64,000 nucleotides of DNA from the IMG/VR virus record IMGVR_UViG_3300020056_002227, positions 62,001 through 126,000 of that record, one strand, 5' to 3'. The first letter of the stretch is position 1, and every line of letters begins with the position of its first letter. Source of the DNA: a virus. Positions 1 to 51,500 of this stretch are shown here, in pieces. The notes below the pieces were generated by a model. It saw only the letters and a program-made list of their open reading frames with translations, was not told the DNA's origin and did no database searches. The position numbers were made by a program, and so were the translations under genes.

Positions 1-447
1 AATGAAGACGTTGATCTCAGTATTCGTGTTCTCAAAGAAGGGCTTTGTACTGTTTTGATGTATGCTTTTGTTCAAGGTAAACTCCGAACCGGTACGGTCA
101 AGGGTGGAAACACGACTGAGGTGTATGAAGACTATCAGGTAGATGATGAAAACGATCCAGCGTATAATAAATCTAGGATGCTAAAAGAAATGCACCCAGA
201 TTGTGTTACACTGGCAGAAAGATATGGTAGGGTTCATCATCACGTAGATCTTGATGCAATCAAAAACAAAGATGGGTATCCTGCACGACAAAATGCTTTG
301 ATATTAAAGAAAGATGTACCCATTATTAATAAGGTAGATAACTACGGAATGAGATTGATGCGCAATTGGGGTACTGATGAACAATACCCAGACCCCAGTT
401 TTGAGATCGATGAATTCCCTGCTGGGAGGCCTTCAGTTCATGGCTAA
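1..447 (+). CDS. Glycosyltransferase, TAGT-like, C-terminal part (5' end outside window)
   Basis: The reading frame is open from base 1, so the start lies upstream. The visible 148 residues resemble the C-terminal third of the complete glycosyltransferase at 1301-2218: EDVDLSIRVLKEGLC here matches EDWDYTLRALEAGMC there, and GTVKGGNTTE matches GTNKGGNNLT, so the two are paralogues. By that comparison it belongs to the TET-associated glycosyltransferase type, inferred to put sugars on modified DNA bases. The N-terminal donor-binding half cannot be checked. Its last 8 bases overlap the epimerase gene, which suggests translational coupling. The family call rests on similarity to the neighbour rather than on a full domain. 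Confidence 0.6.
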   Translation, partial: NEDVDLSIRVLKEGLCTVLMYAFVQGKLRTGTVKGGNTTEVYEDYQVDDENDPAYNKSRMLKEMHPDCVTLAERYGRVHHHVDLDAIKNKDGYPARQNALILKKDVPIINKVDNYGMRLMRNWGTDEQYPDPSFEIDEFPAGRPSVHG

Positions 448-1285
448 AATATTAATTACTGGTGGTGCTGGCTTTGTCGGTTCACATCTTGCAGAAAGAC
501 TGGTCGCAGATGGCCATGAAGTTATCTCTTATGATAACTACTTTACCGGATCGAAAGATAATCATGTTGACGGTGTTACCTATATTGAAGGTTGTACGAC
601 ACTACTGACACCGAATCATTTCTTTGATCTGGATCTTGTATATCATCTGGGTGAATACTCTCGTGTAGAGCAATCATTCGAAGATATTGAACGTGTACAC
701 AAATACAATATCGAAGGTACCACTCGGGTCTTAGAATGTGTTCGTGAATGGGGCTGTAAGATTATTTACTCTGGTTCTTCCACTAAATTTGCTGACCGTA
801 ATGACAAAGATTATGTGATGAGCCCCTATGCCTGGTCTAAGGCAAAGAATACCGAATTGGTTAAGATGTATGCTGAATGGTTCGGTATCGATTATGCTAT
901 CACCTATTTTTATAATGTATATGGCCCGAGAGAAATCGCAGACGGCAAGTATGCTACATTAATTGCTAAATACTCTAAATTGATGGAACTTTCTGGTGTA
1001 TTACCGGTTGTATCACCTGGTACTCAACAAAGAAACTTCACACACATCGACGATATTGTAGATGCTCTGGTTCTGATTGGAGAAAATGGTCATGGTGATG
1101 AATATGGTATCGGTCACCCAGAGAGATTTACTGTATTAGATGTTGCAGAAATGTTCGGTGGTGAGATTGATATGTTGCCTCCCCGGCCAGGAAATCGAAT
1201 GGCAGCAGATGTAATCACCGATAATACACGAGCACTTGGCTGGGAACCAAAAAGAAATCTAGTAGATTATATTACTAATATGTAA
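440..1285 (+). CDS. NAD-dependent nucleotide-sugar epimerase/dehydratase
   Basis: A 281-residue extended short-chain dehydrogenase. Residues 1-20 hold the Rossmann nucleotide loop GGAGFVGSH (GxxGxxG). Further on are a serine-rich strand (SGSSTKF) and the catalytic YxxxK in SPYAWSKAK, followed by YNVYGPRE, typical of UDP-glucose 4-epimerase-like enzymes. The ATG at 440 is preferred over the in-frame ATG at 377 because GGGAGG lies 10 bases upstream and the Rossmann motif begins right after it. It sits between two TAGT-like glycosyltransferases and upstream of a UDP-glucose dehydrogenase, so it probably makes an activated sugar for them. The exact substrate (UDP-glucose, UDP-glucuronate or another) cannot be told from sequence. 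Confidence 0.85.
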   Translation: MAKILITGGAGFVGSHLAERLVADGHEVISYDNYFTGSKDNHVDGVTYIEGCTTLLTPNHFFDLDLVYHLGEYSRVEQSFEDIERVHKYNIEGTTRVLECVREWGCKIIYSGSSTKFADRNDKDYVMSPYAWSKAKNTELVKMYAEWFGIDYAITYFYNVYGPREIADGKYATLIAKYSKLMELSGVLPVVSPGTQQRNFTHIDDIVDALVLIGENGHGDEYGIGHPERFTVLDVAEMFGGEIDMLPPRPGNRMAADVITDNTRALGWEPKRNLVDYITNM

Positions 1286-1300
1286 TCAAGGACTAATATT

Positions 1301-2218
1301 ATGATTCAAGTTGAAAACTACATTGAGACCAAACCGTCTTTATTTGCCTTTGTAGAAGATGTTGAACCAGAATCGACGTTCAATGTTGCCGATCTGGTGA
1401 GAGATTTGATTGCTGATTATTCGAATCAAACTGTTCAAAAATATACCGTCTATATTCCATCAAAGGGCAGGTCAGATCAACACACCACTTATGATATCTG
1501 CAAGGAAGAAAATATTCCTTGTAAGGTTGTAGTGGAACCTCAAGATTTTGAGCAATATGCACAGAATATTGAAACAGACGATATTTTGGTTTTAGATAAA
1601 AATGACCAGGGTGTTCAATATGCCCGTACATGGATTAAAAGATATTCGATTCAAGCCAATGAAGAGTATCACTGGCAATTCGATGACGATATGAGATCAT
1701 TTACCATGAGGGTTGATAATAAGAACAAGAAGGTAAGTGTAAGACACGCAATCTCAATCATCGAACAAGTGGCAACCCTTTTCGAAAACTTTGCGGTTGG
1801 TGGTATGACCTCAAGTGCATTTGCTTTTTCTAAGCCAGCACCTGTAAAGACCAATCAACTGGGATACGGTTGTACCTTTATCAATAATGGCTTTGACCAA
1901 GAATGGAGAGATAAGACTGTAGAGGATTGGGATTATACCTTACGTGCATTAGAAGCCGGAATGTGTACCCTGTCATTTTCTCATATCAATTTTCAAACTC
2001 CCTCGTCTGGTACGAACAAGGGTGGCAACAATCTTACCGATTGGGCTACCATGGAAAAGAGAAAAGAATTCTATGATTACTTTGCCTCACTCTGGCCGGA
2101 CAATTTTAGGGTCGTTGAGATAACAACCGAGAGTTCACGTAAGGGTTACAAGTTGGAACACAAGAGGCGCTTTTTCAATGACTACAAAAACCTAAAATTA
2201 AAATTAAAAACCTCTTGA
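1301..2218 (+). CDS. TET-associated glycosyltransferase (TAGT) family protein
   Basis: A 305-residue protein. After about 45 residues comes YTVYIPSKGRSDQHTT, then VVVEPQDFEQY, a run ending in VQYARTWI, and WQFDDDMRSF, an order characteristic of the TAGT group of GT-A-like glycosyltransferases. The DDD of the last motif is the likely metal/donor site. The family is known next to TET/JBP dioxygenases in phages and is thought to glycosylate 5-hydroxymethylcytosine. No TET gene lies in this window. AAGGA upstream of 1301 is the ribosome site. The stop codon lies inside the -35 box of the following promoter. It is a paralogue of the truncated gene at 1-447. Acceptor and sugar are inferred only. 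Confidence 0.72.
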   Translation: MIQVENYIETKPSLFAFVEDVEPESTFNVADLVRDLIADYSNQTVQKYTVYIPSKGRSDQHTTYDICKEENIPCKVVVEPQDFEQYAQNIETDDILVLDKNDQGVQYARTWIKRYSIQANEEYHWQFDDDMRSFTMRVDNKNKKVSVRHAISIIEQVATLFENFAVGGMTSSAFAFSKPAPVKTNQLGYGCTFINNGFDQEWRDKTVEDWDYTLRALEAGMCTLSFSHINFQTPSSGTNKGGNNLTDWATMEKRKEFYDYFASLWPDNFRVVEITTESSRKGYKLEHKRRFFNDYKNLKLKLKTS

Positions 2219-2243
2219 CAAATAACACGAGGTGTATTATAAT
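2215..2243 (+). promoter_or_regulatory. Consensus sigma70-type (early) promoter before dexA-like gene
   Basis: A perfect TTGACA (2215-2220) and a perfect TATAAT (2238-2243) are separated by 17 bases, the optimal spacing. Transcription would begin about 2250 and read the exonuclease and UDP-glucose dehydrogenase genes. The -35 box overlaps the stop codon of the upstream glycosyltransferase. A ribosome site AAAAGGA follows at 2257-2263. Confidence 0.85.
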
Positions 2244-2270
2244 GAACACTTACCTTAAAAGGATATCTCT

Positions 2271-2885
2271 ATGAAGCACTGCATCATTGACTTTGAGACC
2301 ATGGGCGTAGATGCAGGTAACTGTGTAGTTATCGACATGTCAGCATTTGTATTTGACTGGGATAGATTCACCTCAGCAAAGCCCTATGGTTTCGAAGACG
2401 TTGCTGATGTTAGAAAATTCAAGTTTGATGTGAAAGAGCAGGTTACTAAATATAATTTTACAATCGACCCAGATACCGTAAAATTCTGGGAGAGTCAACC
2501 TTCAGACGTTCGAAAGAATATTGCTCCGAAGAAAACAGACATAAGTATTGAACAGTTTACCGACGACTTCGTAGATTTCCTCATTCCGCATGGAAAGATT
2601 TCTTATTGGTGGTCACGATCTAATACTTTCGACCCTGTTATTTTGTGGCGCTTATATAATGCTGTAGGTAAAAACAAGAAGATTCATGAGTATCTACCTC
2701 ATTGGACTCTCCGTGATACGAGATCGTGGATAGATGCAAAATTAGATTTCCCAAAAAAGAATGGGTTCTGTCCAATTGAGGACGAACAATTGTGGGAATC
2801 AACATTCAAGCATCATGATAGTGCTTGGGATGTATTGGCAGATGTAATGAGATTACAGCGCATTGATCGTGCCGAAAAACTTTGA
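2271..2885 (+). CDS. dexA: DexA-like 3'-5' exonuclease
   Basis: A 204-residue DEDD-type exonuclease. The N-terminus has CIIDFETMG (Exo I, with the metal-binding Asp and Glu), the middle has SNTFDPVILWRLY (Exo II), and the end has HHDSAWDVLADVMRL (Exo III with His and two Asp). This layout and length match T4 DexA (exonuclease A, about 227 residues), which degrades DNA from 3' ends. It has its own consensus promoter and a good ribosome site (AAAAGGA 8 bases before ATG). The following dehydrogenase starts 23 bases after the stop. The family assignment is strong; whether DNA or RNA is the main substrate here is not shown by sequence. Confidence 0.82.
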   Translation: MKHCIIDFETMGVDAGNCVVIDMSAFVFDWDRFTSAKPYGFEDVADVRKFKFDVKEQVTKYNFTIDPDTVKFWESQPSDVRKNIAPKKTDISIEQFTDDFVDFLIPHGKISYWWSRSNTFDPVILWRLYNAVGKNKKIHEYLPHWTLRDTRSWIDAKLDFPKKNGFCPIEDEQLWESTFKHHDSAWDVLADVMRLQRIDRAEKL

Positions 2886-2908
2886 CTATATACACTATGG
2901 AGAAAAAA

Positions 2909-3808
2909 ATGTTCACACAGGCATCAATCGCTAAAGTAGATATGCCCCCAAACGGGATCAAATTAGATATGGACAATAATAAATTAGGGCTCGGTATTGT
3001 AGGTAAAGGCTTCGTTGGTGGGGCTGTTTCTGCTGGATTTGATACCAAGAATGTTAGACAACACGTGGTAGATCCCAGGCATTCGACACTGTCGCTTGAA
3101 GACCTGGCTGATATCAACCCAGATATTATCTTTATCTGTCTACCCACTCCCTGTCAGCTGAATGGTAAGGTAGATGCATCTCTGATTGCTAATACTCTAC
3201 ACAAATTTAACAGTGAGAAATATGAGGGTATTGTCGTTATCAAGAGTACCGTGGCTGCATCTGTACTAGATGCCTTTGTGAAGACATATGAAAATTTGAA
3301 TATCGTTTATAATCCAGAATTCTTGACCGAGGCAAATGCTAACGACGATTTCATTAACCCACCCTTTCAGATCTTTGGTGGTGAATGGGATCTATGTACA
3401 AAGGTCGAGCAGATGTACATTCAATACAGCAAGGTCAAGCCCGTACCGTCATTTAAGATGGATATCAAGGCTGCAAGTTTTCTTAAGTATACCGTCAACA
3501 GTTGGTTGGCAACCAAGGTCACTTTCTTCAATGAACTGAGACTCCTTTACGATACATATAATATGGAAACATCGTGGGAAGAGTTTGTTGGTGTTTTGGC
3601 ACACGAACCACGGATTGGTGCATCACATATGAATGTACCTGGCCCCGATGGTCAATACGGTTTCGGTGGGAATTGTTTCCCGAAAGATACCAAAGCCTTT
3701 GTAGAAGAATCCCGAAATTCTTCTATGCTGTCATTACTGGCAACGGCAATCGAACTAAATAATTCAATGAGAAACAGCGTGAAACTAGAAGAGGTAAAAA
3801 ATGGCTGA
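2909..3808 (+). CDS. UDP-glucose/GDP-mannose dehydrogenase family protein
   Basis: A 299-residue NAD-dependent nucleotide-sugar dehydrogenase, shorter than bacterial Ugd (about 390-450), which suggests a compact C-terminal UDP-binding part. It shows the NAD loop GIVGKGFVGG (residues 29-38), ICLPTPCQ, VIKSTV, YNPEFLTEA and the catalytic cysteine in YGFGGNCFPKD (Cys256). Upstream in-frame TTG (2882) and ATG (2897) exist, but GGAG at 2899-2902 sits 6 bases before the ATG at 2909, so that start is chosen. It probably oxidises UDP-glucose to UDP-glucuronate. With the epimerase and glycosyltransferases it forms a sugar-nucleotide supply set. Confidence 0.85.
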   Translation: MFTQASIAKVDMPPNGIKLDMDNNKLGLGIVGKGFVGGAVSAGFDTKNVRQHVVDPRHSTLSLEDLADINPDIIFICLPTPCQLNGKVDASLIANTLHKFNSEKYEGIVVIKSTVAASVLDAFVKTYENLNIVYNPEFLTEANANDDFINPPFQIFGGEWDLCTKVEQMYIQYSKVKPVPSFKMDIKAASFLKYTVNSWLATKVTFFNELRLLYDTYNMETSWEEFVGVLAHEPRIGASHMNVPGPDGQYGFGGNCFPKDTKAFVEESRNSSMLSLLATAIELNNSMRNSVKLEEVKNG

Positions 3809-4013
3809 AAACAATTTGAAGCGTGAACTACTCGAAGCACTGAAAATGGGTTTCGAATCGAACATCCAACGGCATAAAGTAAATATTCAGGTGTTACTAA
3901 ATAATGCTGTTGGTGTTGCAGAGCACCCTGACGTTATGGAAACCGTCGAAGGTGAACTGTCGAAAATGGCTGAGTATGAAGATAAACTTGAAATGCTCCA
4001 AAAATACTTCTAA
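3801..4013 (+). CDS. Small conserved phage protein, unknown function
   Basis: A 70-residue, mostly helical, charged protein rich in Glu and Lys with no membrane segment or cysteine. It starts 8 bases inside the dehydrogenase gene, behind GAGGT, so it is translationally coupled. Residues 45-70 could form a short amphipathic helix pair (EGELSKMAEYEDKLEMLQ). Marine T4-like genomes often carry a protein of this size here, but I do not recognise a characterised family. Confidence 0.7.
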   Translation: MAENNLKRELLEALKMGFESNIQRHKVNIQVLLNNAVGVAEHPDVMETVEGELSKMAEYEDKLEMLQKYF

Positions 4014-4028
4014 TCGGAATTTTTTATT

Positions 4029-4892
4029 ATGGACCTAAAAATCAGTACCGAAGATCTTAGAAAGTACAGTCTCTTTGTAGGTACACCCATGTATGGTGGT
4101 CAGTGTTCTGGTTTGTTCACTAAGGCATGTACAGACCTTTCCTTGGTTTGTGGTGCACACGGAATCCCACTTAAATTCTATTATCTTTTTAATGAGAGTT
4201 TGGTACAAAGAGCTCGTAACTATGTCGTAGATGAATTTCTTCGGTCTGATTGCACTCACCTTCTTTTCATTGATTCCGATATTGGGTTTCAGGCAAGAGA
4301 CGTTCTTGCACTTCTAGGGATTCAAACCTCTGACCCCGAAAAATATAATATCGTGACTGGCCCTTACCCCAAGAAAACAATTGCTTGGGAAAAAGTGTCG
4401 AAGGCAGCTGCAGAGGGTTTTGGCAAAGATGATCCTTTTCAACTGAATCAGTTCACTGCTGATTACGCATTCAATCCTGTTAAGGGTCAAACGAATCTTA
4501 AACTATCGGAGCCCATCGAAGTGGCAGAAGCAGGAACTGGATTCATGCTTATCCCTCGGGAAGTCTTAGAGAAATATAAAGAGGCTTATCCTGAACTCTC
4601 TTATAAGCCCGATCATGTTCGAACAGATAACTTTGATGGTAGCAGAGAGATCACAGCATTCTTTGATTGTGTGATTGACCCCGAAACCAAACGATATCTG
4701 TCTGAAGATTATTTCTTTTGTAAACAGGCCCGAGCTATTGGAATCTCTGTATGGATGTGTCCTTGGATGCAACTGAATCATGTAGGTTCTTATATCTTTA
4801 CTGGTAATATGGCTGCAATTAGTCGTATCGGTGCATCTGCTACGGCAGATAAAACGGCCAGTAGAAAAAACTACAAAAAGAAGAAAAAGTGA
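4029..4892 (+). CDS. Glycosyltransferase, GT-A fold
   Basis: A 287-residue putative glycosyltransferase. An N-terminal strand VGTPMYGGQ and helix region is followed by LVQRARNYVVDEFL and the metal/nucleotide-binding DxD motif in HLLFIDSDIGF (about residues 78-88). Later come EAGTGFMLIP and an acidic segment YLSEDYFFCKQAR, placed as in GT-A enzymes where an acidic residue acts near the acceptor. The C-terminus is very basic (RKNYKKKKK), which could contact nucleic acid or a polyanion (inference). It is the third glycosyltransferase of this block and is not a close paralogue of the TAGT pair. The ribosome site is weak (GGA 10 bases upstream). Acceptor unknown. Confidence 0.72.
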   Translation: MDLKISTEDLRKYSLFVGTPMYGGQCSGLFTKACTDLSLVCGAHGIPLKFYYLFNESLVQRARNYVVDEFLRSDCTHLLFIDSDIGFQARDVLALLGIQTSDPEKYNIVTGPYPKKTIAWEKVSKAAAEGFGKDDPFQLNQFTADYAFNPVKGQTNLKLSEPIEVAEAGTGFMLIPREVLEKYKEAYPELSYKPDHVRTDNFDGSREITAFFDCVIDPETKRYLSEDYFFCKQARAIGISVWMCPWMQLNHVGSYIFTGNMAAISRIGASATADKTASRKNYKKKKK

Positions 4893-4921
4893 TTGACATT
4901 TAACCCAACTTGTTATATAAT
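4893..4921 (+). promoter_or_regulatory. Consensus sigma70-type (early) promoter of the clamp/clamp-loader operon
   Basis: TTGACA (4893-4898) and TATAAT (4916-4921) are both perfect matches with 17-base spacing. The predicted start near 4928 leaves a short leader before the gp45 ATG at 4955. Together with the promoter at 2215 this suggests that early genes use host RNA polymerase without sequence compromise. Confidence 0.87.
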
Positions 4922-4954
4922 GACACCTAAATTTGAAATGGAGAAATCTATATT

Positions 4955-5617
4955 ATGAAATTTTCTGAACGTACACTAACCATTCTCAAGAGCTTTGCAG
5001 GAATTAACAAATCCATTCTCATGCGAGAAGGGAGTGTTCTTAAGACAATTACACCTGAAAAGACTCTCATTGCGATCGCTAATATCCCTGATGAGATCCC
5101 GTCAGAAGCATGTATCTATGATATGTCTCGTTTTCTGTCAATTTTATCGCTTTACGAGGATCCCGATGTTGAGTTTAATGATAAATACTTCATTATCTCA
5201 GAGGGTCGGCGTCGTACCAAGTACATCTACGCTGACATTTCAATGATTCATACTCCGCCTGAGAAAGAGATTTCGATCCCTTCCGAAGACGTTGTTGTTG
5301 ATGTGAAATGGGATGATTTACAGTCCGTACTGAAGGCTGCTGGCGTCCTTCAGTTTAGTGAGGTTGCATTTGTTGGCGAAAGCGGCAAGTGTTATCTCAA
5401 GGCAATCGACAGTTCTACCGAAAATGCTGACGACTTTGATGTTGAAATCGGAGACACTGACGATACGTTTAAGATTATCATTAAAACCGATAACCTTAAA
5501 CTGCTACCTCAAGACTATCGGGTTACGCTTTGCAGCAAAGGTATCTCAGAGTTTCGAGGCAAGGATGTCACGTACTTCGTGGCAATTGATTCTAAGTCGA
5601 CTTATAACAAAGGATGA
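4955..5617 (+). CDS. 45: DNA polymerase sliding clamp gp45
   Basis: A 220-residue protein matching T4 gp45 in length and features: MKFSERTLTILKSFAGIN at the start, YDMSRFLSILSLY in the first third, and a two-fold repeated clamp fold ending with GISEFRGKDVTYFVAID. The trimeric ring tethers DNA polymerase gp43 and, in T4, is also the mobile activator of late transcription with gp33/gp55. It heads an operon with gp44, gp62 and regA as in T4, driven by the promoter at 4893. The GGAG ribosome site is upstream of the ATG. Polymerase gp43 is not in the window. Confidence 0.93.
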   Translation: MKFSERTLTILKSFAGINKSILMREGSVLKTITPEKTLIAIANIPDEIPSEACIYDMSRFLSILSLYEDPDVEFNDKYFIISEGRRRTKYIYADISMIHTPPEKEISIPSEDVVVDVKWDDLQSVLKAAGVLQFSEVAFVGESGKCYLKAIDSSTENADDFDVEIGDTDDTFKIIIKTDNLKLLPQDYRVTLCSKGISEFRGKDVTYFVAIDSKSTYNKG

Positions 5618-9280: not shown

Positions 9281-9739
9281 ATGACTGGTTTAAATATTAA
9301 CCACCTCACCCCGTTCACTGTAGGTTTTGATAGAATGCTTGATCGACTCGAAACGATGTCTGATCACATGAATCGAAATAATACAGGATTCCCGCCCTAC
9401 AACATCCGTAAACAGGAAGATCATTTCTATATCGACTTGGCACTTGCTGGGCTCGATAAAGATGATGTTGAAATCGAAGTAGCAGATGGAAATCTCACCA
9501 TTCGTTCCACTTGGGACGAGCAAGGTGACTACTTCAATGCTGGTGGAGATATGCTCCACCGCGGTATCTCTTTCCGAAAGTTCACCCGTAATTTCTCTAT
9601 TGCGGAAGACATTCAGGTAGTAGATGCCGAATTTGTGAATGGTCTTTTAACGATTCATCTGGAACGCATTGTACCAGAAGAGAAAAAGCCCAAGAAAATT
9701 GAAATTGGTTTAGGTGAAAGGAAACTGTTAACCGAATAG
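9281..9739 (+). CDS. hsp20: Small heat shock protein Hsp20
   Basis: A 152-residue alpha-crystallin-domain chaperone. After an N-terminal arm with a typical start (NHLTPFTVGFDRMLDRLE), the crystallin domain covers about residues 45-140: FYIDLALAGLDKDDVEIEV, RGISFRKFTRNF and the GLLTIHLER strand, with basic KKPKKIEI after it. Such genes are common in T4-like marine phages and are thought to protect phage or host proteins during infection; IbpA is the bacterial relative. The AGGAG ribosome site is 6 bases before ATG and may be masked by an upstream CTCTT (see findings). The next gene is a peroxiredoxin, another stress gene. Confidence 0.93.
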   Translation: MTGLNINHLTPFTVGFDRMLDRLETMSDHMNRNNTGFPPYNIRKQEDHFYIDLALAGLDKDDVEIEVADGNLTIRSTWDEQGDYFNAGGDMLHRGISFRKFTRNFSIAEDIQVVDAEFVNGLLTIHLERIVPEEKKPKKIEIGLGERKLLTE

Positions 9740-9769: not shown

Positions 9770-10324
9770 ATGAATAGAAATGGTAGACGCATCCCAGATG
9801 TGACCTTTCAAACACGTGTACGAGACGATTCTATCGATGGGCCAAATCCCTATCGATGGGAAGCCGTAACCACTGGTGACCTCTTTGATGGAAAGCGAGT
9901 GGTCGTATTTTCTTTGCCCGGTGCATTTACACCGACGTGTTCCACCTATCAGGTGCCAGGTTATGAAGAAAACTATAACCTGATTCGTGATCTAGGTGTT
10001 GACGAGGTATATTGTGCTTCTGTTAATGATTCATTTGTGATGAACAAGTGGGCAAAAGATCAATGTGTCGAAAAGGTAAAAATGATCCCAGATGGTACGG
10101 GATGCTTTACTCGACAAATGGGTATGCTTGTCGATAAGTCTAATCTTGGTTTTGGTTTGAGATCGTGGCGTTATGCTATGGTTGTGACTGATGGAAGAAT
10201 TGAGGCTTTCTTTGAAGAGCCAGGACTGAGAGATAATGCTTCTGATGATCCCTATGGAGAAACTGCTCCACAGATGATTATTGATTATTTGAGATCTGCA
10301 TCATCTCTACAACAGGCAAGCTAA
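9770..10324 (+). CDS. Peroxiredoxin (AhpC/TSA, Prx5-like)
   Basis: A 184-residue thiol peroxidase. The active-site motif PxxxTxxC is present as PGAFTPTC (residues 50-57; peroxidatic Cys57). SVNDSFVMNKWAKDQ and the LRSWRYAMVVTDGRIEAFF segment are typical of the Prx5/hybrid peroxiredoxin group, where an Arg near the latter completes the site. It would reduce hydrogen peroxide or organic peroxides with glutathione/glutaredoxin or thioredoxin. In a phage it is an auxiliary metabolic gene. It ends 5 bases before a strong terminator and follows hsp20, so the two may form a stress unit. Confidence 0.9.
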   Translation: MNRNGRRIPDVTFQTRVRDDSIDGPNPYRWEAVTTGDLFDGKRVVVFSLPGAFTPTCSTYQVPGYEENYNLIRDLGVDEVYCASVNDSFVMNKWAKDQCVEKVKMIPDGTGCFTRQMGMLVDKSNLGFGLRSWRYAMVVTDGRIEAFFEEPGLRDNASDDPYGETAPQMIIDYLRSASSLQQAS

Positions 10325-23662: not shown

Positions 23663-26353
23663 ATGGCGGTAATAGAAAATAACATATCGTTCTTTATCCA
23701 GTCTCATTTTCCTGCTATCTATAGGGAGAACGGCGAAGAGCTCGTTGAGCTTGTAGAAGAATATTATAAGTGGTTGGAATCGACGGACAACCAATCGATT
23801 TATAATGCAAGAAGAATGTTTGAATATCGGGATATTGATACTACTCTCGAAAAAATGCTTATCTTCTTCCAGAAAAAATTCTTAGCAGATTTACCTCTGA
23901 AAGAAGAAACAATCAGATTTGTTACTAAAAATATTCTTGACCTTTACCGAAGAAAGGGAACACCAGCAGGTATTGAACTTTTCTTTGCTTTATTCTATGA
24001 TGAATTTGATGCTGAAATTACTTATCCAGCTAGGTTTATGTTTAAGGTTTCCGATTCCAATTGGAAAAATGGCATATACCTACAGATGTTCCCTAACAAG
24101 AATAAATTTGTTTCTAAAACAGATGTTATATACACCTACAAAGATCTCCTTAGCAGAAATATATTAGGCTCTTCTTCAGGTGCAGTTGCAGCTGTCGATA
24201 AAATCAATTTTATCATTTTAAATAATATTTTGACACCCATCATTTATATTGATGAGGTGTTGGGTGTATTCGAAAAATACGATGACCTAATTACTACCAT
24301 TAACGGCGAAGAAATTTCTTTTGGTCGTGTTGCTGGATCTTTAAGCGCAGTTGAGATTGATACTGGTAATAAAGATGCTAGTACTGGCCACAAGATTGGT
24401 GACATATACAATATAAGAACCACTACTGGTAAGGGCGGAGAGGTGATGGTGACTGAGGTCACTGATGATCTATCTGGTAGTATTAATTATGAAGTAGAAA
24501 ATGGTGGTTTCGGTTACACGATTGAAAATACCAGGCTGATTGTTTCAAATCAATCGATTCTATTCAATCAAGCAGAATATGATGCAAACAAAGATGACTT
24601 GACATTTACTCCGTTTGAAAGATTAAGAGATTTTGCTGGAAATGAAGCAATTGTTGTAGGACAAGCAGATAATGTTGTAGGTATTGAGTGTGATGCTAGT
24701 GCTGGACTTCATGGTGAATTTAGTATTAACAGAGTAATCCTTACCGTAGATCGATCTCCGAATATAACAATTAATCCTAGCTGGGTTGGACTTGTTACAC
24801 CTAAGAATATAACATCACCTGGTGATATGTACGTTGATACCGGATTAGAAAGTGATGTGAAAGTCTTGAGTCTTGACAATGCAACAAACATCAATATTAT
24901 TACCGATCCGATTGCTAATTTTATTGAGAATACCGAACCCGGTGGTCTTGCGTCTGCTCCTGTTTTCCTTAATTCAACTAATTATAATGATGTACCACCT
25001 GCTGCGGCACCAATGTCAGGTACAGCAGATCCGGTAACGCTAGCAACACCATTGAATCAGGCTTTCAATATCGAAACACTTACCATTGGTTCGATACGAG
25101 AATTTGAGAATATCGACCCTGGCAGAGATTACACATTTGATGTATTTGCTCGAGCAAAAGATGATGTGTTTTCAACACTTTCTAGGAGGCCTCAGATTAT
25201 CAGTTTCGATGATCCTGCTTCTGCTGGTGTATTTGATGTTGGAGAAATCGTTGAAGAAACTAATTCGGGCCGCACCGGTATTGTTACAAAAACTAATACA
25301 CAGCAAGGCTATATTGGATTAATACCTTACGACTATTATGGGTTCTCAGCAGAGAACGAAATTATAAGAGCAAATGGTAATATACCTATATCTCAAGCAG
25401 GAGATGATCTTACTGAAGAAATTTTAGGATTAAACGCCATTATAGATGCAGAGACACAATTTTCTATAGGTAAGATTTCGAAGGTTGCAGTAATCGATTC
25501 TGGTTTTGGCTATGTTACTGGCCAACTTGGTGAAATATTTGATGACGACAATGATATTAAAGCAATAGGTACAGTATTTGCCGAGACACAAGGTAGTACC
25601 AGTGGATTCTGGTCTGAATTTAATTCTCATATAAATGGGTATCAGGATCTTCCAGTCGATCTGAACACTCCAATATTACCCACAGAAAAACTCGTAGAAC
25701 AGCTTGAGGTATTTGTCGCGGGAGTAGAACCTACAGTTCCCCCAGAGCTTGGATTGTGGGCAAACACAGTACATTCAGATGGGTATTCATATTTTGATTA
25801 TACACTGAATGGGGAAATCAATGCAGCAGATATAACACAGCTGAGAAAACTTTCTGACGGTGCTGAAGACGTTGCTCAAGACACAATTGATAGATGGAAT
25901 AATGTAGTTGCACCGAGTCTTAAATCTCAAGTTTGGTACAAGACGTATCCAGAATACTATGTGGTCTTACCAGAAAAAATATATTATGATTCTGCAATGA
26001 AGATTCAAGATAGTGATTTCTATCAGGAATATTCATATCAAATTAAATCGACTCTTGCTAAGCAAGAATATGAGAAATTGCTAAAAGAGAATGTTCACCT
26101 TGCTGGAACGAAGATGTTCGGTGACTTTATCTTTAAGGCATTAATAGGTTCACCTCAAGAAATGAGGTTTAGAAGAAACTTTAATACACCGGGGCCCACA
26201 TATAATAATGATGGTACCGTCGATGATGGTGCACCACCTGGGTCATTACCGGTGCTTATTGATTCACCAGATTTGGAGACACTTACAGTAGATGTAATCA
26301 ATCTAAGAGTCGATAGAGACGATGTAACCGTAGATAATGATTCTACAGTTTAA
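23663..26353 (+). CDS. 7: Baseplate wedge protein, gp7-like, with EF-hand-like insertion
   Basis: An 896-residue protein. Residues 1-130 contain FPAIYRENGEELVELVEEYY, then FLADLPLKEETIRFVTKNIL and RRKGTPAGIELFFALFYDEF before DAEITYPAR. The same order occurs in the C-terminal region of T4 gp7 (1032 residues), here at the N-terminus. The rest is beta-rich with Gly-turn repeats (e.g. ENGGFGYTI, DSGFGYVTG). At about residues 711-723 lies DYTLNGEINAADITQL, a dockerin/EF-hand-like calcium loop. It follows gp6 as gp7 does in T4. Confidence 0.65.
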   Translation: MAVIENNISFFIQSHFPAIYRENGEELVELVEEYYKWLESTDNQSIYNARRMFEYRDIDTTLEKMLIFFQKKFLADLPLKEETIRFVTKNILDLYRRKGTPAGIELFFALFYDEFDAEITYPARFMFKVSDSNWKNGIYLQMFPNKNKFVSKTDVIYTYKDLLSRNILGSSSGAVAAVDKINFIILNNILTPIIYIDEVLGVFEKYDDLITTINGEEISFGRVAGSLSAVEIDTGNKDASTGHKIGDIYNIRTTTGKGGEVMVTEVTDDLSGSINYEVENGGFGYTIENTRLIVSNQSILFNQAEYDANKDDLTFTPFERLRDFAGNEAIVVGQADNVVGIECDASAGLHGEFSINRVILTVDRSPNITINPSWVGLVTPKNITSPGDMYVDTGLESDVKVLSLDNATNINIITDPIANFIENTEPGGLASAPVFLNSTNYNDVPPAAAPMSGTADPVTLATPLNQAFNIETLTIGSIREFENIDPGRDYTFDVFARAKDDVFSTLSRRPQIISFDDPASAGVFDVGEIVEETNSGRTGIVTKTNTQQGYIGLIPYDYYGFSAENEIIRANGNIPISQAGDDLTEEILGLNAIIDAETQFSIGKISKVAVIDSGFGYVTGQLGEIFDDDNDIKAIGTVFAETQGSTSGFWSEFNSHINGYQDLPVDLNTPILPTEKLVEQLEVFVAGVEPTVPPELGLWANTVHSDGYSYFDYTLNGEINAADITQLRKLSDGAEDVAQDTIDRWNNVVAPSLKSQVWYKTYPEYYVVLPEKIYYDSAMKIQDSDFYQEYSYQIKSTLAKQEYEKLLKENVHLAGTKMFGDFIFKALIGSPQEMRFRRNFNTPGPTYNNDGTVDDGAPPGSLPVLIDSPDLETLTVDVINLRVDRDDVTVDNDSTV

Positions 26354-26361
26354 GATAAATA
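26354..26361 (+). promoter_or_regulatory. Possible late promoter box GATAAATA
   Basis: GATAAATA lies 26 bases upstream of the ATG at 26387 and directly after the gp7-like stop, fitting the NATAAATA late class. AGGAG follows as ribosome site. Modest confidence because one base differs from TATAAATA. Confidence 0.45.
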
Positions 26362-26386
26362 GTTTAAAAATCTTTTAGGAGAAATC

Positions 26387-27604
26387 ATGTCAAAACAAAC
26401 TGTCAATATTGGTACTTCTGCCAACGACGGTACCGGCGATCCTCTCCGCACAGCATTTGATAAGACCAATGATAATTTCGTAGAATTATATAATGCGCTG
26501 GGTGGAAACGATATCGTAAACCTCATTAATAATGATGAGGAAATTGAGCTCTTATCTACAGCAAATAAAATTTCGTTTTTATACAATACAGAGGCTCAGC
26601 TACTTGACGTAGATCCTACCTCACATCACGGTTGTATTGCTCATGCCCACGATACCGGTGCACTGTATTATGCTCATCAAGGTGAGTGGAGAAAGTTACT
26701 AACTGATAATGCAAATACGGCCGCACCAGTACCAAGTTATACTGATCCTTTGGCAAGGCATTCTTATGGTGAAGCAATTACAGGTTCAGAAACTGATGGG
26801 TATATCTTACAGACAAATGCTGACGGCACCTATCAATGGGCAGCTCCAGGTGATGTAACAGGTGCAGTTAGAAATATCTCAGAATTAGACGATGTTGTTC
26901 TAATCAACCTGAACGCAGGTCAGACTTTGAAGTGGAATGGTTCTAATTGGATCAACGATTCAGATTTAACTGGAAGTGGTGGTTCTGCTAGTTTTACAGG
27001 GCTGACCGATACACCGGCTTCACTTGGAAGTGCTGGTCAATTTATCAGAGTTAATTCTTCTGGTAATGCGCTAGAATTTACTGCTGCTCCCTCTGGTGGA
27101 GGTGGTGCAAGTGTATTGAATGATTTGACCGATGTTTCTACAGCAGGGGCATCTAGTGGACAAGTATTAAAATACAACGGTAGTAGTTGGGCCCCCGCAG
27201 CAGATGCAACTGGAAGTGGTGGCGGTACTCTCAGTAGAACAACAGAGACTGTGACTACAAGTGGATTAATTGGTAACCAGCAAGATGTGGTGATGAATTT
27301 CAACAATGTAGGTTCTTCATTTATGCTAATGAAGGTTCAGGTAAGCCATGCAGTTTGGTTCAGAATATATGTTGATGATGCTGCTAGAGCAGCAGACATA
27401 TCAAGAGTACAGGGTGATGATATTGCTGATGGTGAAGGTCTTATTGCTGAATTCATTTCAAATGGAGCAGAAACTTTTGATATTACACCAGCCATATTAG
27501 CATATTCTAATTCCGGCTCGAGTCTTAGGTGTGCAATAAAAAATGACTCTGGTGGTGCTCAAACACTATCAGTTACCCTTACCGGAATTATCTTAGAGGC
27601 ATAA
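26387..27604 (+). CDS. Tail fibre/baseplate appendage protein
   Basis: A 405-residue structural protein. The N-terminus VNIGTSANDGTGDPLRTAFD with KTNDNFVELYNAL is a recurrent attachment module in marine T4-like fibres. Residues 60-100 include HHGCIAHAHDTGALYYAHQG, a motif also present near the end of the fibre at 56794-59178 (YHGAIAHSHADGAMYFAHSG), so the two share a domain. In the middle are short repeats around LDDVVLINLNAGQTLKWNGS, LTDTPASLGSAGQ and LTDVSTAGASSGQ. The C-terminal 130 residues form a predicted globular beta tip. Probably a trimeric fibre or collar component. Confidence 0.6.
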   Translation: MSKQTVNIGTSANDGTGDPLRTAFDKTNDNFVELYNALGGNDIVNLINNDEEIELLSTANKISFLYNTEAQLLDVDPTSHHGCIAHAHDTGALYYAHQGEWRKLLTDNANTAAPVPSYTDPLARHSYGEAITGSETDGYILQTNADGTYQWAAPGDVTGAVRNISELDDVVLINLNAGQTLKWNGSNWINDSDLTGSGGSASFTGLTDTPASLGSAGQFIRVNSSGNALEFTAAPSGGGGASVLNDLTDVSTAGASSGQVLKYNGSSWAPAADATGSGGGTLSRTTETVTTSGLIGNQQDVVMNFNNVGSSFMLMKVQVSHAVWFRIYVDDAARAADISRVQGDDIADGEGLIAEFISNGAETFDITPAILAYSNSGSSLRCAIKNDSGGAQTLSVTLTGIILEA

Positions 27605-27608
27605 TTTT

Positions 27609-29951
27609 ATGTCAAAGGAAGCATATACAGTCGTCTTTGAATCTGGAGTTGATGAAAATCTATTTTTCGATTCGGGCGACGGCCGAGATATTGAGGTCAT
27701 AAGTAGACTATCGTCGATACCCGGTGTTGCTAGTGTTAAGCTTGACGAAGAAGAAAAAACATCTCTTTTAGAAAGTGCAGAAGTAAAAAATCTTGAAAAG
27801 GCAAAAATGCCGGTGAAGTTTTCTACTGCTTTCTATGATGGACCATGGCCATCCACAGTTGTTAATACCGATTTGGTTGGAGGTGCTGATCTTACAGCAC
27901 CCCCAGTAAGTAATGGTAATTCTTATGATTATCAACCTCTCGGCAAGGCTCTTATGTCATCCGTAAACATCACCGCATCTTCAGGTCCAGCTGGATTTCA
28001 TTCCTACCAAGGTGAAGATAATTTAGTCACTGCAAACTGGGAACAAGTACCTGTAGGACGATATGTTGATATCGTTTGTATTGAAGCTGGTGTACCACCA
28101 GACACTTCATATAATAGTAGAGAATACTATTTTGATTTTGCTGAATATGATCCTCGAACATGGAATCTCACATTAACTCCAAATGGCTCATCAAATTGGA
28201 TTGTAAGTGGTACACACAGAGGTGGTACACTTTCCAGTGCCAATAATCCAACACTAATATTTCATCCAGGCGATACAGTTAATTTTACCAATAATGCTAG
28301 TAGTTCTCACCCACTAGAATTGGTAGATGGTTCGGGCAATCAATTGCCCTTGGTAGATAACCAAGGTGCGGCAAATGGCGAGACACTCACATATAAAATT
28401 TCTAAATGGGGCAACGGTGGAATTCAATTCTACTACAGATGTACAATACACACCGGCTCGATGGTCGGAGGTGTAAACCTTAGCTTAGGTGCGAATTCAA
28501 AAATTGTTAAAATGGATTGGAGCAATTATGATTCTGCGATGAATGAACCGGGCAATAACCAGATCTCAAATCCATCAGCTGGATGGCTAGATGAACATGG
28601 TATCGGTGTAATGAGTGCTGCAGCAGGGAGAATAAACAGCTGGGCAATAGGTTCCGATGTTCGAGTAATATACATTCAGGATTATGATACCTTGGTCGCC
28701 TACAATGCAGTATTAGAGTGGCATAAAGCTAAAGCTGTAAATTCAGAAACTGGTAAAAGAAATGCTACAATTTGTACCGGGGCCTGGGGATTTTCGGACG
28801 AATATTATGATAAGGCAGTACCCATTGATAATATTACAACTCTCACTTATTACAGTGATGGTGGTGGAGCTACTACAGTCAATAGACCTGGTGGTGGCTG
28901 GGGAAATGATTATTCAGCATTTGAAGCTGCACACATGGCACCAAAGCAATTCCAAGACCCATTTGACAATGTAAAAAAATGGTGTATCATAGTACCAAAT
29001 TCTACTCAAAATAGTGCTCTTAAGGCAGCCAATGTAGCATTTGACAATGTTACCACTGCCGGCCATAGCCCAATTTATCACTTTCGATCAATAGGTAATG
29101 CTGGCAATGTTTTTGCCAAAGAAGGTACTCCACAGTGGGATAATGAATTTACTGCGAATGGTCGAATTATCAATATTTCTACCTCAGGTTTATCCGTGAG
29201 TGGAGGTAGTAGTTCTTCCGTATCCAATGTAGTATATTATCCACTGCGCGTTGGAGACAATGGTATGGAAGAAGAGATTAGTATCGGAGCATATCAATGC
29301 AGCCAATTAAAGCCTTATGTTGATTTTTATAGCACGAGGGGCCCGATTGTAGATCTATTTGCTCCGGGCAATCATTGGTATGGGCCATATCATAGGTATG
29401 GTAATCCAACTGACCTTTTTAACCAGTCAGGTACTACCAGCATTAATGGTGAACTAATGGGTTATTTCATTGGAACTAGTTGTGCCGCACCAGTTGCTGC
29501 TGGAGCTGGAGCTCTATTTGTTGAAGATTATTACTCTAAGACGAGAAGCTATCCCTCAATAGCAAAGCTGAGAGAAATAATGCAAAATTATGCAGCGCAC
29601 AGATTAGAAAGTATGAATCAGATTGACTGGTCAAACGCGCCTACTGCTACCCAAACAATCATAAGCCCAGCAGGTGAACTAGCTTGGCCCGGGCCGACAG
29701 TAACATATTCAGACCCAGGATCGGCTTTTCAACCTGTACATGCTACGTATCTTGGTTACAATTTAAGCACGGGTGGTTCCATGATTATGCAAGATTTATT
29801 CGGTTCAAAGAATCTTTGTACTTTCTTGCCCAAGGCAATCTTACAAAGTAATGGAAAATTCATTAACTCTAATGGTACTGGAATAAGGCGACCAAAGCCA
29901 GGAAGAACCGGCATGATGTATCCTCGTCGTCGACTTTCAATACAGAAATAA
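27609..29951 (+). CDS. Subtilisin-like (S8) protein with inserted cupredoxin domain
   Basis: A 780-residue protein. Residues 1-65 resemble an I9 propeptide. The S8 fold follows: the Asp strand reads YVDIVCIEAGV (Glu159 where Asp is normal), the His motif is EHGIGVMSAAAG (His330), the oxyanion Asn is in SIGNAGN (about 497) and the Ser motif is IGTSCAAPVAAG (Ser624). Between the first two, residues about 183-292 form a cupredoxin: FHPGDTVNFTNN, SSHPLELVDG (His234) and YRCTIHTGSM (Cys278, His281, Met285), a complete type 1 copper ligand set. It lies between baseplate genes, so it is probably virion-borne. Whether it cleaves anything is open because of the Asp to Glu change. Confidence 0.8.
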   Translation: MSKEAYTVVFESGVDENLFFDSGDGRDIEVISRLSSIPGVASVKLDEEEKTSLLESAEVKNLEKAKMPVKFSTAFYDGPWPSTVVNTDLVGGADLTAPPVSNGNSYDYQPLGKALMSSVNITASSGPAGFHSYQGEDNLVTANWEQVPVGRYVDIVCIEAGVPPDTSYNSREYYFDFAEYDPRTWNLTLTPNGSSNWIVSGTHRGGTLSSANNPTLIFHPGDTVNFTNNASSSHPLELVDGSGNQLPLVDNQGAANGETLTYKISKWGNGGIQFYYRCTIHTGSMVGGVNLSLGANSKIVKMDWSNYDSAMNEPGNNQISNPSAGWLDEHGIGVMSAAAGRINSWAIGSDVRVIYIQDYDTLVAYNAVLEWHKAKAVNSETGKRNATICTGAWGFSDEYYDKAVPIDNITTLTYYSDGGGATTVNRPGGGWGNDYSAFEAAHMAPKQFQDPFDNVKKWCIIVPNSTQNSALKAANVAFDNVTTAGHSPIYHFRSIGNAGNVFAKEGTPQWDNEFTANGRIINISTSGLSVSGGSSSSVSNVVYYPLRVGDNGMEEEISIGAYQCSQLKPYVDFYSTRGPIVDLFAPGNHWYGPYHRYGNPTDLFNQSGTTSINGELMGYFIGTSCAAPVAAGAGALFVEDYYSKTRSYPSIAKLREIMQNYAAHRLESMNQIDWSNAPTATQTIISPAGELAWPGPTVTYSDPGSAFQPVHATYLGYNLSTGGSMIMQDLFGSKNLCTFLPKAILQSNGKFINSNGTGIRRPKPGRTGMMYPRRRLSIQK

Positions 29952-48584: not shown

Positions 48585-51500
48585 ATTTAGATCCATTGGC
48601 TCCAAGACCATTACTCTTGGGCAGGGAATACCACAACAGTTTCCCATTCAATTAGATCCAGCCCCATTTGAGGGTGCCATTGTTTATGCAGATAATGGTA
48701 CAATTAAACTCTCGAATGGTACGGCGTGGGTTGATGTTGGAGCAGGGCCTCAAGGTGTCCAAGGTTTTACAGGTACCCAAGGTGTCCAAGGTATCCAAGG
48801 TGAGTATGGGCCAGGATTTACAATCATCGGTTCGGTACCAGATGTAGACGCAGGTGGTGATCCACAAGCAACTTTAAATGCAGCATTCCCCAGTCCAAAT
48901 ATAGGTGAAGGTGTCATCGATGATACCGACGACGAGCTTTGGATTTGGGATGGTACCAATTGGATTAATATCGGTTCATTCCGTGGTGTTCAAGGTCTTC
49001 AAGGCACTCAGGGTGTTCAAGGTCTTCAAGGCACACTCGGAGAAAAAGGTATTCAAGGTACCCGTGGTTATAGAGGACCACAGGGAACCCAAGGTACTCA
49101 AGGTTTCCAAGGTGTTCAAGGCTTCCAAGGCAATCAGGGCATACAAGGTGTCCAAGGGCCTCAGGCCTCACAGGGTACCCAAGGTATTCAAGGTAATCAA
49201 GGACTTCAGGGTCTTCAAGGTGTTCAAGGACCGCAAGCTTCACAAGGAACTCAAGGCTTCCAAGGCAATCAAGGGATGCAGGGTTTCAACGGTGATGATG
49301 CTGGATCGGTATATGAATATCGACTACTAAATTCTAATATTGAGGCTGACCCAGGTAGTGGTCAGATGATTTGGAATTTACCTAGCAACCCAACCGATAC
49401 TTTCTCCACAACTACAAGAATTTGGATTGACGATGAAGCCTTCTATGGCGTAAACATGGAAGGAATTTATTCGGCAATCGCAGCAGCAGACTCTGTTAAT
49501 AAAGCCTACATGAAGGTAACAAAGCGTGGGCAACCAGATGATTATGTTGTATTTACTATTCAGGCAATTTCTGATAGTACCGGTTACTGGCAATTAGATG
49601 TAACATTTATAGCCGGTAATGCAATCAGAGAGAATTTCGTTGAAGAAACATCACCTGGTGTTTTTACTTCTTATCCTCTACTCGTAGATTTTTCTATCAG
49701 TGGTGATAAGGGAATTCAAGGTGATCAAGGCACCCAAGGTTTCCAAGGACTACAAGGACCTCAAGGTCCACAAGGAATGCAGGGAACACAAGGTGTTCAA
49801 GGTGTCCAAGGCCCACAAGGGCTTACCGGTAATCAAGGTACCGTTGGTGCTTACGGCGGTGTAACATTTAGATACGAGTATAATGCTCTCGATGTAACTA
49901 ATACAGACCCCACACCCGGATTCTTAAAGGGTGATAATGCAATATTAGGTAATGCTACTGAATTATACATTGACGTCACTGATGCTGATGGTGTTACCAT
50001 TAGTGCAATGCTTGCAGATTTCTATGCGTCTTCAAATCCAAATAGTAAGGGCTATTTGAAACTGGCAGATGCATCCAACGTCTATAATTATGCTCTCTTT
50101 GAGGTGACAGGTGGTAACCTTGTAGGTACTGCTGGAACTGGATATCACGCAGTAGCAGTAAATAGTCTTGTTACAGGTCAAACCTATTCTAACGGTACAG
50201 ATTTCCGAATCTCATTTATAAGAACTGGTGATCAAGGCATACAGGGCAATCAAGGTACTCAGGGTATTCAAGGTTTCCAAGGTTCACAGGGTACTCAAGG
50301 CTTCCAAGGATCTCAAGGGACTCAGGGTATCCAAGGTGTTCAAGGACCACAAGGTCTTCAAGGTACTCAAGGTTTCCAAGGAACACAAGGCACACAGGGC
50401 ATTCAAGGATTACAGGGTGTACAAGGTTCCGTTGGTGATTTCGGTGGCCTTACATTTGATTATACATTCGATTCTGCGACCACTGATGCAGATCCTGGTC
50501 AAGGTAATTTAAGGTTTGATAATGCTGCATTTGATTCAGCAACTAAAATGTATATCGATGACCTCGATGATGCAGCTAATGATCTTTCTCCACTCTTCAC
50601 GGAACTTGACATTAATGCAAGTGGTGTAAAAGGCCTGTTTAGAATTATTAATGCAGCCGATGTTACCGAGTTTGCTACATTCAATTATACAGAAATCACA
50701 GATTCTACCGGTTATCATACCTTTGATGTAGCCCACATTGCTGGTGTAACCTCGTTCACAAATGGCGCAGATATTAGAATTACATTTGTTCGAACTGGAG
50801 ACCCAGGCCCTCAGGGTGCTCAAGGTTCTCAAGGACCTCAGGGTACCCAAGGTTTCCAAGGTGTTCAAGGGCTACAAGGTATCCAAGGTACACAGGGCAT
50901 CCAAGGCACACAGGGCATCCAAGGTATGCAAGGTACCGTAGGAGATCACGGTGGACTTTCTTGGAATTATCTCTTTGATTCAAATACAAGTTCTGGATCG
51001 GCCCCAGTTGCAAATAGCTGGAAGATTGATAACTCCAATATAACGCTTGCAACGAAGCTTGTCATCGATGATATTCCAGATGATGCATACAGCAACGAAT
51101 TAGATGACTTCTTTACCTATCTTGGTGCAATACCCGGTTCTCCAAAGGGTCATATTCTTATTGAGAGCACAGCGGATAACGATGGACCTGCAGGTCATCA
51201 CTTTGTTGTCTACGAGTTTACTGCATTTAACTGGGATAGTGCATCTGAATTATACGGTATCTTTGATGTAAACTACATTGCATCAGGAGCTGTAACAAGT
51301 AATAACTGGAATAACGTAGAGTCCGATCACGGCCCAGATACACTGGTTCACTTTATTCCGGCTGGACCACAAGGTACTCAGGGACCACAAGGTACTCAAG
51401 GATTTACTGGTATTCAAGGTGGTGCAGGTGCCTCCGGTGGTGTAACATTCGAATATGAGTTCGATACAGATACTGGCACTTCTCTCTTAGGTGCACCTGG

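Follow-up and report, generated by a model that had tools for sequence, protein, structure and literature searches.

A candidate DNA-glycosylation cassette, probably supplied by UDP-glucuronic acid, among the replication genes of a T4-like marine phage

The occurrence of sugar-nucleotide enzymes and glycosyltransferases amid the replication genes of a phage raises the question of which sugar is made and which molecule receives it. Such a locus opens the window analysed here, a 64,000-base stretch comprising bases 62001-126000 of the 169,742-base record IMGVR_UViG_3300020056_002227. The record represents a T4-like marine phage of ~170 kb with T4-type replication genes (UvsW, gp55, gp47, gp46, gp43, gp45, gp44 and gp62), the DNA polymerase of which is nearest to those of Phage C48C1 and Synechococcus phages (44-45% identity). 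The initial annotation described two TET-associated-type glycosyltransferases (TAGTs) flanking a nicotinamide adenine dinucleotide (NAD)-dependent sugar epimerase (EPIM), followed by a uridine diphosphate (UDP)-glucose dehydrogenase (UGD) and a GT-A enzyme with a basic tail. All of these enzymes are confirmed to be present and intact, while an exonuclease and a phrog_1811 protein, omitted from that description, lie among them. A DNA-decoration module of sugar-nucleotide and transferase genes is the leading explanation of the locus and is well supported. The genes are located between gp43 and gp45, with TAGT1 one gene away from gp43, in the following order:

1..447, + strand: C-terminal 148 codons of TAGT1 (whole gene at record 61221-62447); PF20691, E=1.7e-44 for the full protein
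440..1285, + strand: EPIM, NAD-dependent UDP-uronate-type sugar epimerase (GEYxR subfamily), 281 amino acids; PF01370, E=9.8e-41
1301..2218, + strand: TAGT2, TET-associated-type glycosyltransferase with an HWQFDDD motif; PF20691, E=2e-24
2271..2885, + strand: DexA-like 3'-5' exonuclease; PF16473, E=3e-14, and phrog_255, E=6.8e-33
2882..3808, + strand: UGD, short UDP-glucose 6-dehydrogenase, 308 amino acids; PF00984/PF03721, E ~4e-14, and phrog_9148
3801..4013, + strand: 70-amino-acid protein; phrog_1811
4029..4892, + strand: GT-A-like glycosyltransferase with a lysine-rich KKKKK tail; phrog_1574, E=8.9e-60
4955..5617, + strand: gp45-like sliding clamp, a downstream landmark identified by synteny with T4-like relatives

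In the proposed pathway, UGD would oxidise host UDP-glucose to UDP-glucuronic acid (UDP-GlcA) and EPIM would turn the latter into a related UDP-sugar, with 4-epimerisation to UDP-galacturonic acid (UDP-GalA) the most likely reaction. In newly made phage DNA, a modified base would accept this sugar through a hydroxyl, with TAGT1 as the transferase. TAGT2, an accessory mobile gene, would add a second sugar, and the resulting decoration, bulky and probably charged, would shield the DNA from nuclease defences. That the locus is a phage DNA-glycosylation cassette of this kind, placing a UDP-GlcA-derived sugar and then a second one onto phage DNA with ensuing protection, is considered reasonably probable. 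A narrower version is offered tentatively, as a possibility on which we would not rely: a widespread mobile module of environmental phages in which TAGTs attach a uronic acid to DNA, galacturonic acid or its disaccharide being the likeliest, to give charged, sugar-coated DNA. In this version the base hydroxyl would come from a source other than TET or a thymidylate-synthase-type hydroxymethylase, perhaps from a ThyX-family protein or from a hydroxylase yet to be described.

The grouping of TAGT, EPIM and UGD recurs well beyond this record. Hidden Markov models of the three proteins were run over 362 fetched loci and EPIM was clustered at 85% identity. A TAGT was found within ~8 kb of EPIM in 35 of 47 environmental viral EPIM clusters (with UGD also present in 28) versus 0 of 46 bacterial clusters (Fisher p=1e-15); the linkage fraction is indicative, since the contigs are fragments and cassette members were among the seeds of the alignment used to retrieve the loci. 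With near-copies counted, 46 of the 76 viral EPIM loci have EPIM directly preceded by a TAGT-N gene. The gene order is TAGT-EPIM-UGD in the lineage of the record, polymerase-TAGT1-TAGT2-UGD-EPIM in L029/L031 and UGD-ParB-TAGT-TAGT-EPIM, just before terminase, in the siphovirus-like L034 and its relatives, while Vibrio phage Kuja carries the module split into two loci (UGD-EPIM and TAGT-TAGT). Phage C48C1 has EPIM and UGD but no TAGT. Cassette or TAGT loci repeatedly adjoin DNA polymerase or terminase. TAGT, EPIM and UGD are thus a real module, linked in several gene orders and in unrelated phages, which bears out its original reading as a sugar module; it recurs next to DNA-replication genes and its donor is probably UDP-GlcA-derived. 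No description of the combination was found in the open-licence literature.

The two enzymes of sugar-nucleotide synthesis point to UDP-GlcA. The catalytic Cys/Lys/Asn/Asp residues and Rossmann motifs of UGD are conserved (GFGGNCFPKD, NPEFLTE, KST, LKYTVN and GIVGKGFVG). Sister cassettes carry a full-length UGD in place of the short one, and this interchange within the module points to UDP-GlcA formation as its conserved function. EPIM, which starts with an ATG at 440 and shares 8 bases with the end of TAGT1 (stop at 445-447), has bacterial homologues of ~65% identity that directly adjoin ugd in 28 of 80 loci, spanning Gammaproteobacteria, Campylobacterota and Bacteroidota. Because bacterial EPIM adjoins ugd, the substrate of the phage enzyme is probably UDP-GlcA.

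With regard to the transferases, TAGT1 is a GT-A glycosyltransferase of 408 amino acids, its start lying 780 bases upstream of the window, and it combines an HWLMDDN motif with an N-terminal GMPxF domain situated outside the window. Both proteins match PF20691 over the whole model (positions 1-205), scoring 152.6 bits for TAGT1 and 87.1 bits for TAGT2 against a cut-off of 27.5. They belong to two types of the acidic motif HW..DD[N/D] common to aligned TAGTs, namely HW..DDN (TAGT1) and HW..DDD (TAGT2). The AF2 model of TAGT1 (predicted local distance difference test, pLDDT, 79.6) matches GT-A enzymes with Z ~14 and a root-mean-square deviation (rmsd) of ~4.9 over 236 residues. TAGT2 groups with the second TAGTs of other cassettes (L051, L147) in a quick tree. 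The DNA alignment with the closest relative, L014, stops at 1283 and 2230, precisely bracketing TAGT2; L014 holds another gene pair at this position and L015 holds neither. Furthermore, TAGT2 shares 76% DNA identity (aligned over 1402-2222) with the L029 lineage, which is elsewhere too diverged from the record to align, save for a short clamp-loader stretch. As the alignment breaks flank TAGT2 and it alone resembles L029, TAGT2 is a separately mobile accessory gene. Such mobility would suit an optional outer sugar. The two-step (disaccharide) decoration suggested initially therefore stands in part: two TAGTs of different type fit it, but TAGT2 is optional and mobile.

TAGTs also occur in other settings. 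At L167:3625-5913 and L165:5009-7273, TAGTs of 754-762 amino acids bear an extra C-terminal ~400 amino acids, for which a family search returned no clear family. Vibrio phage henriette 12B8 (L045:5001-5858) carries an unannotated TAGT between the clamp loader and dUTPase/DNA polymerase. Among the non-cassette loci L051-L128, TAGTs are frequently paired and frequently directly upstream of terminase, and a different short-chain dehydrogenase/reductase (SDR) epimerase adjoins the TAGT in 9 of these loci.

DNA is favoured as the acceptor for three reasons. The PF20691 enzyme of phage T6 is reported to place the second glucose on DNA (PMC13216743); the T6 gene adjoins gp42/gp43, comparable to the position of TAGT1 one gene from gp43; and the L034 cassette encodes a ParB-like protein whose C-terminus resembles the N-terminal domain of TAGT1 (hhalign probability 95.9%). 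In some cases a small standalone gene replaces this N-terminal domain and gives the same match.

Several results weigh against the proposed pathway. With respect to linkage, 70 of 78 viral TAGT loci have neither EPIM nor UGD within ~8 kb. With respect to the sugar, the C-terminal UDP-binding domain PF03720 was not matched in the 308-amino-acid UGD, as is the case for the other short UGDs of the set (281-319 amino acids), and EPIM reached no cut-off among NCBIfam equivalog models. Motif alignment places an invariant Ile165 in EPIM where the UDP-GlcA 4-epimerase has Arg185, its carboxylate grip (PMC10107529); the GEYxR motif is invariant across aligned EPIMs, and its R74 might substitute for Arg185. 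With respect to the acceptor, a very long branch separates the T6 TAGT from the present TAGTs (quick tree), and the placing of a TAGT between the portal and head genes of Vibrio phage 1.076.O leaves room for other acceptors. No match to the deoxycytidine monophosphate (dCMP) hydroxymethylase/thymidylate-synthase fold (PF00303) was obtained in the 169,742-base record, with controls and Kuja positive. C5 cytosine methyltransferase (PF00145) was likewise not found in the record, nor was alpha-glucosyltransferase (PF11440; T6 positive at 5.6e-260). The TET model PF12851 gave no match in the record or in 65 TAGT/EPIM contigs, having matched nowhere, controls included.

The absence of PF00303 and PF00145 matches from the record, hence of any acceptor-making base enzyme found there, is in keeping with a different account, namely that the cassette decorates glycans of the virion or host surface (capsid, portal, tail or lipopolysaccharide) instead of DNA. 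The location of the 1.076.O gene, the occurrence of bacterial EPIM and ugd pairs among polysaccharide-type genes, and a minus-strand block of the record with a GT8/GT25/sulfotransferase/methyltransferase cluster are also consistent with it. Nevertheless, the total lack of TAGTs near bacterial EPIM, the placement between gp43 and gp45 together with the recurrence of cassette and TAGT loci beside DNA polymerase or terminase, and the action of the characterised PF20691 member on DNA argue against this account, which is considered unlikely.

If DNA is the acceptor, the identity of the base becomes the next question. The modified cytosine named in the initial annotation is unsupported, because neither a dCMP hydroxymethylase nor a C5-methyltransferase was found. 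PF00303 was also not matched in nearly all of the other EPIM- or TAGT-bearing contigs tested (mostly fragments), with Kuja and the L167 contig as exceptions. A survey of neighbour families near TAGT loci returned terminase, DNA polymerase, other SDR epimerases and MazG-like proteins, with dCMP deaminase also near cassettes; as to a recurrent base-modifying enzyme, no hydroxylase was found in it. The sole 2-oxoglutarate (2OG) oxygenase identified (record 51434-51976) belongs to PF13640, with a sub-threshold PF12851 match (E=0.009). As a base hydroxylase this 2OG-Fe(II) enzyme is a mere possibility and was set aside, being prolyl-hydroxylase-like (PiuC/YbiX type), 10 kb away and devoid of linkage evidence. 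The record has a single ThyX; that it might make the acceptor hydroxyl here is speculation, and it may simply make deoxythymidine monophosphate. A full-length serine hydroxymethyltransferase (record 4065-5210, L005:2065-3210, minus strand; PF00464, E=1e-145) is encoded near DNA ligase, ribonucleotide reductase and ThyX, and possibly feeds the ThyX folate cycle.

The active site and fold of EPIM offer clues to the nature of the sugar. UDP-GlcA decarboxylases have a catalytic Glu at the position where UDP-GlcA 4-epimerase has Ser128 (PMC7984243). In EPIM a hydroxyl residue of S112-S113-T114 occupies this position, and T114 is nearly invariant in alignments, with Ser in some cassettes, favouring a predicted 4-epimerase with a galacturonic acid product. 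The predicted structure (pLDDT 92.4) is closest to UDP-sugar 4-epimerases (TM0509, Z 34.8, rmsd 2.0 over 277 residues), a modest margin above human UDP-GlcA decarboxylase (Z 31.9) and Bacillus UDP-GlcA 4-epimerase (Z 31.7). These features bear on the proposal that EPIM is a decarboxylase or a bifunctional enzyme which yields a pentose (xylose or arabinose) from UDP-GlcA, the product resembling the arabinosyl or pentosyl cytosine of RB69 and Thanatos. T4-like phages with pentosylated cytosine are known (PMC12838424, PMC13390438), and among PDB sequences EPIM matches human UDP-glucuronate decarboxylases best (E 6e-26), level with UDP-glucose 4-epimerases. However, the nearest structures are 4-epimerases, the RB69-type thymidylate-synthase-fold 5-hydroxy-dCMP synthase (PF00303) was not found in the record, and the decarboxylase Glu is replaced by Thr/Ser in aligned EPIMs, making the pentose an improbable outcome. 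The latter replacement, affecting the SxSE motif, also led to the rejection of EPIM as a canonical UDP-xylose synthase. Thus, UDP-GalA is predicted as the most likely product, with a pentose as the alternative.

Mere co-inheritance, with the genes neighbours by lineage history and without a shared pathway, fits the many sampled contigs that are close T4-like relatives of the same order, but is very improbable given the linkage in differing orders and unrelated phages (Kuja, the siphovirus-like L034 and T4-like phages), the exchange of short for long UGD within the module and the polyphyly of cassette TAGT-N genes, for which well-supported branches of a quick tree force at least 5 label changes.

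Two neighbouring genes are not counted as members of the module. Of 38 cassette loci, 20 have the DexA-like exonuclease nearby, all of them T4-like so far as could be judged; the gene is probably a resident neighbour outside the sugar module. The phrog_1574 glycosyltransferase, taken initially for a third transferase of the cassette, was rejected as a member since its relatives adjoin gp45 in the T4-like Caulobacter phage Cr30 and Stenotrophomonas phage DLP_6 without a cassette there: no UGD, epimerase or TAGT is annotated near it in either, and a distant TAGT lies elsewhere in both. We regard the gene for this GT-A enzyme as resident in the T4 lineage and not specific to the cassette. Elsewhere in the record (25055-28744, L004:3055-6744, minus strand), GT25, sulfotransferase, methyltransferase and GT8-like genes form a cluster that may decorate the virion or host surface. 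Adjoining Hsp20-like and peroxiredoxin-like genes (window 9281-9739 and 9770-10324) are kept in relatives. In the related loci L022-L025 (e.g., L024:4376-8483), ~1.6 kb interrupts the DNA polymerase gene, as by an intron, intein or insertion.

If the proposed DNA-glycosylation pathway holds true, phage DNA glycosylation would extend to UDP-GlcA-derived sugars, with the module present in dozens of environmental phage lineages, and would involve DNA-modifying transferases of new donor specificity as well as an unrecognised route to the acceptor base. It would also help to explain the solitary TAGTs to which a survey of GT-bearing phage genomes assigned no role (288 of 753; PMC13216743). The separate mobility of TAGT2 suggests that selection by defence systems drives exchange of the outer sugar.

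Comparison with known systems places the cassette beside, but apart from, several of them. Bacterial ugd-epimerase pairs in polysaccharide-type loci share an EPIM ~65% identical and directly adjoining ugd, whereas no TAGT occurs at those loci. Vibrio phage vB_VchM_Kuja (Ackermannviridae), the closest cultured phage to carry the cassette, resembles the record in that its UGD adjoins an epimerase sharing 52.6% identity with EPIM and in having two tandem TAGTs elsewhere, and differs in its thymidylate-synthase-fold enzyme, two separate loci and full-length UGD; nothing on its DNA chemistry was found in the literature searched. Bacillus phage SP-15, which carries DNA glucuronate on a modified uracil and has a ThyX-family protein as its proposed hydroxymethyluridylate synthase (PMC5977210), likewise has a sugar cluster with a UDP-glucose dehydrogenase gene. 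In SP-15, however, dihydroxypentyluracil bears the glucuronate in the form of phosphoglucuronate, a PF20691 gene was not found, the gene order is unrelated and there are two ThyX genes versus one in the record. In RB69/Mosigvirus (arabinosyl-cytosine) and Shewanella phage Thanatos (pentosyl-cytosine), two transferases form mono-/disaccharides (PMC6024577, PMC13390438, PMC12838424). These phages are similarly T4-like, and their replication regions hold sugar-nucleotide genes, among them one for an epimerase. They nevertheless employ a predicted GT-B transferase together with a 5-hydroxy-dCMP synthase of the thymidylate-synthase fold, and obtain the UDP-pentose via isomerase, kinase or nucleoside triphosphate (NTP)-transferase type genes (the bifunctional NTP-transferase/kinase ORF53_52c, TH1_060), while the record combines UGD, EPIM and TAGT with no 5-hydroxy-dCMP synthase (PF00303) found. 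A further parallel is the TAGT of T2/T6 (beta-glucosyl-hydroxymethylcytosine-alpha-glucosyltransferase, gene ggt), which shares PF20691, the GT-A fold and a gene adjoining DNA polymerase, and which in T6 adds the second sugar to DNA (PMC13216743). In T6, gp42 hydroxymethylcytosine and an alpha-glucosyltransferase provide the first glucose, neither of which was found in the record; the sequences are very distant, and UGD together with EPIM implies a non-glucose donor. The route encoded by this cassette probably differs from the known phage DNA-sugar pathways.

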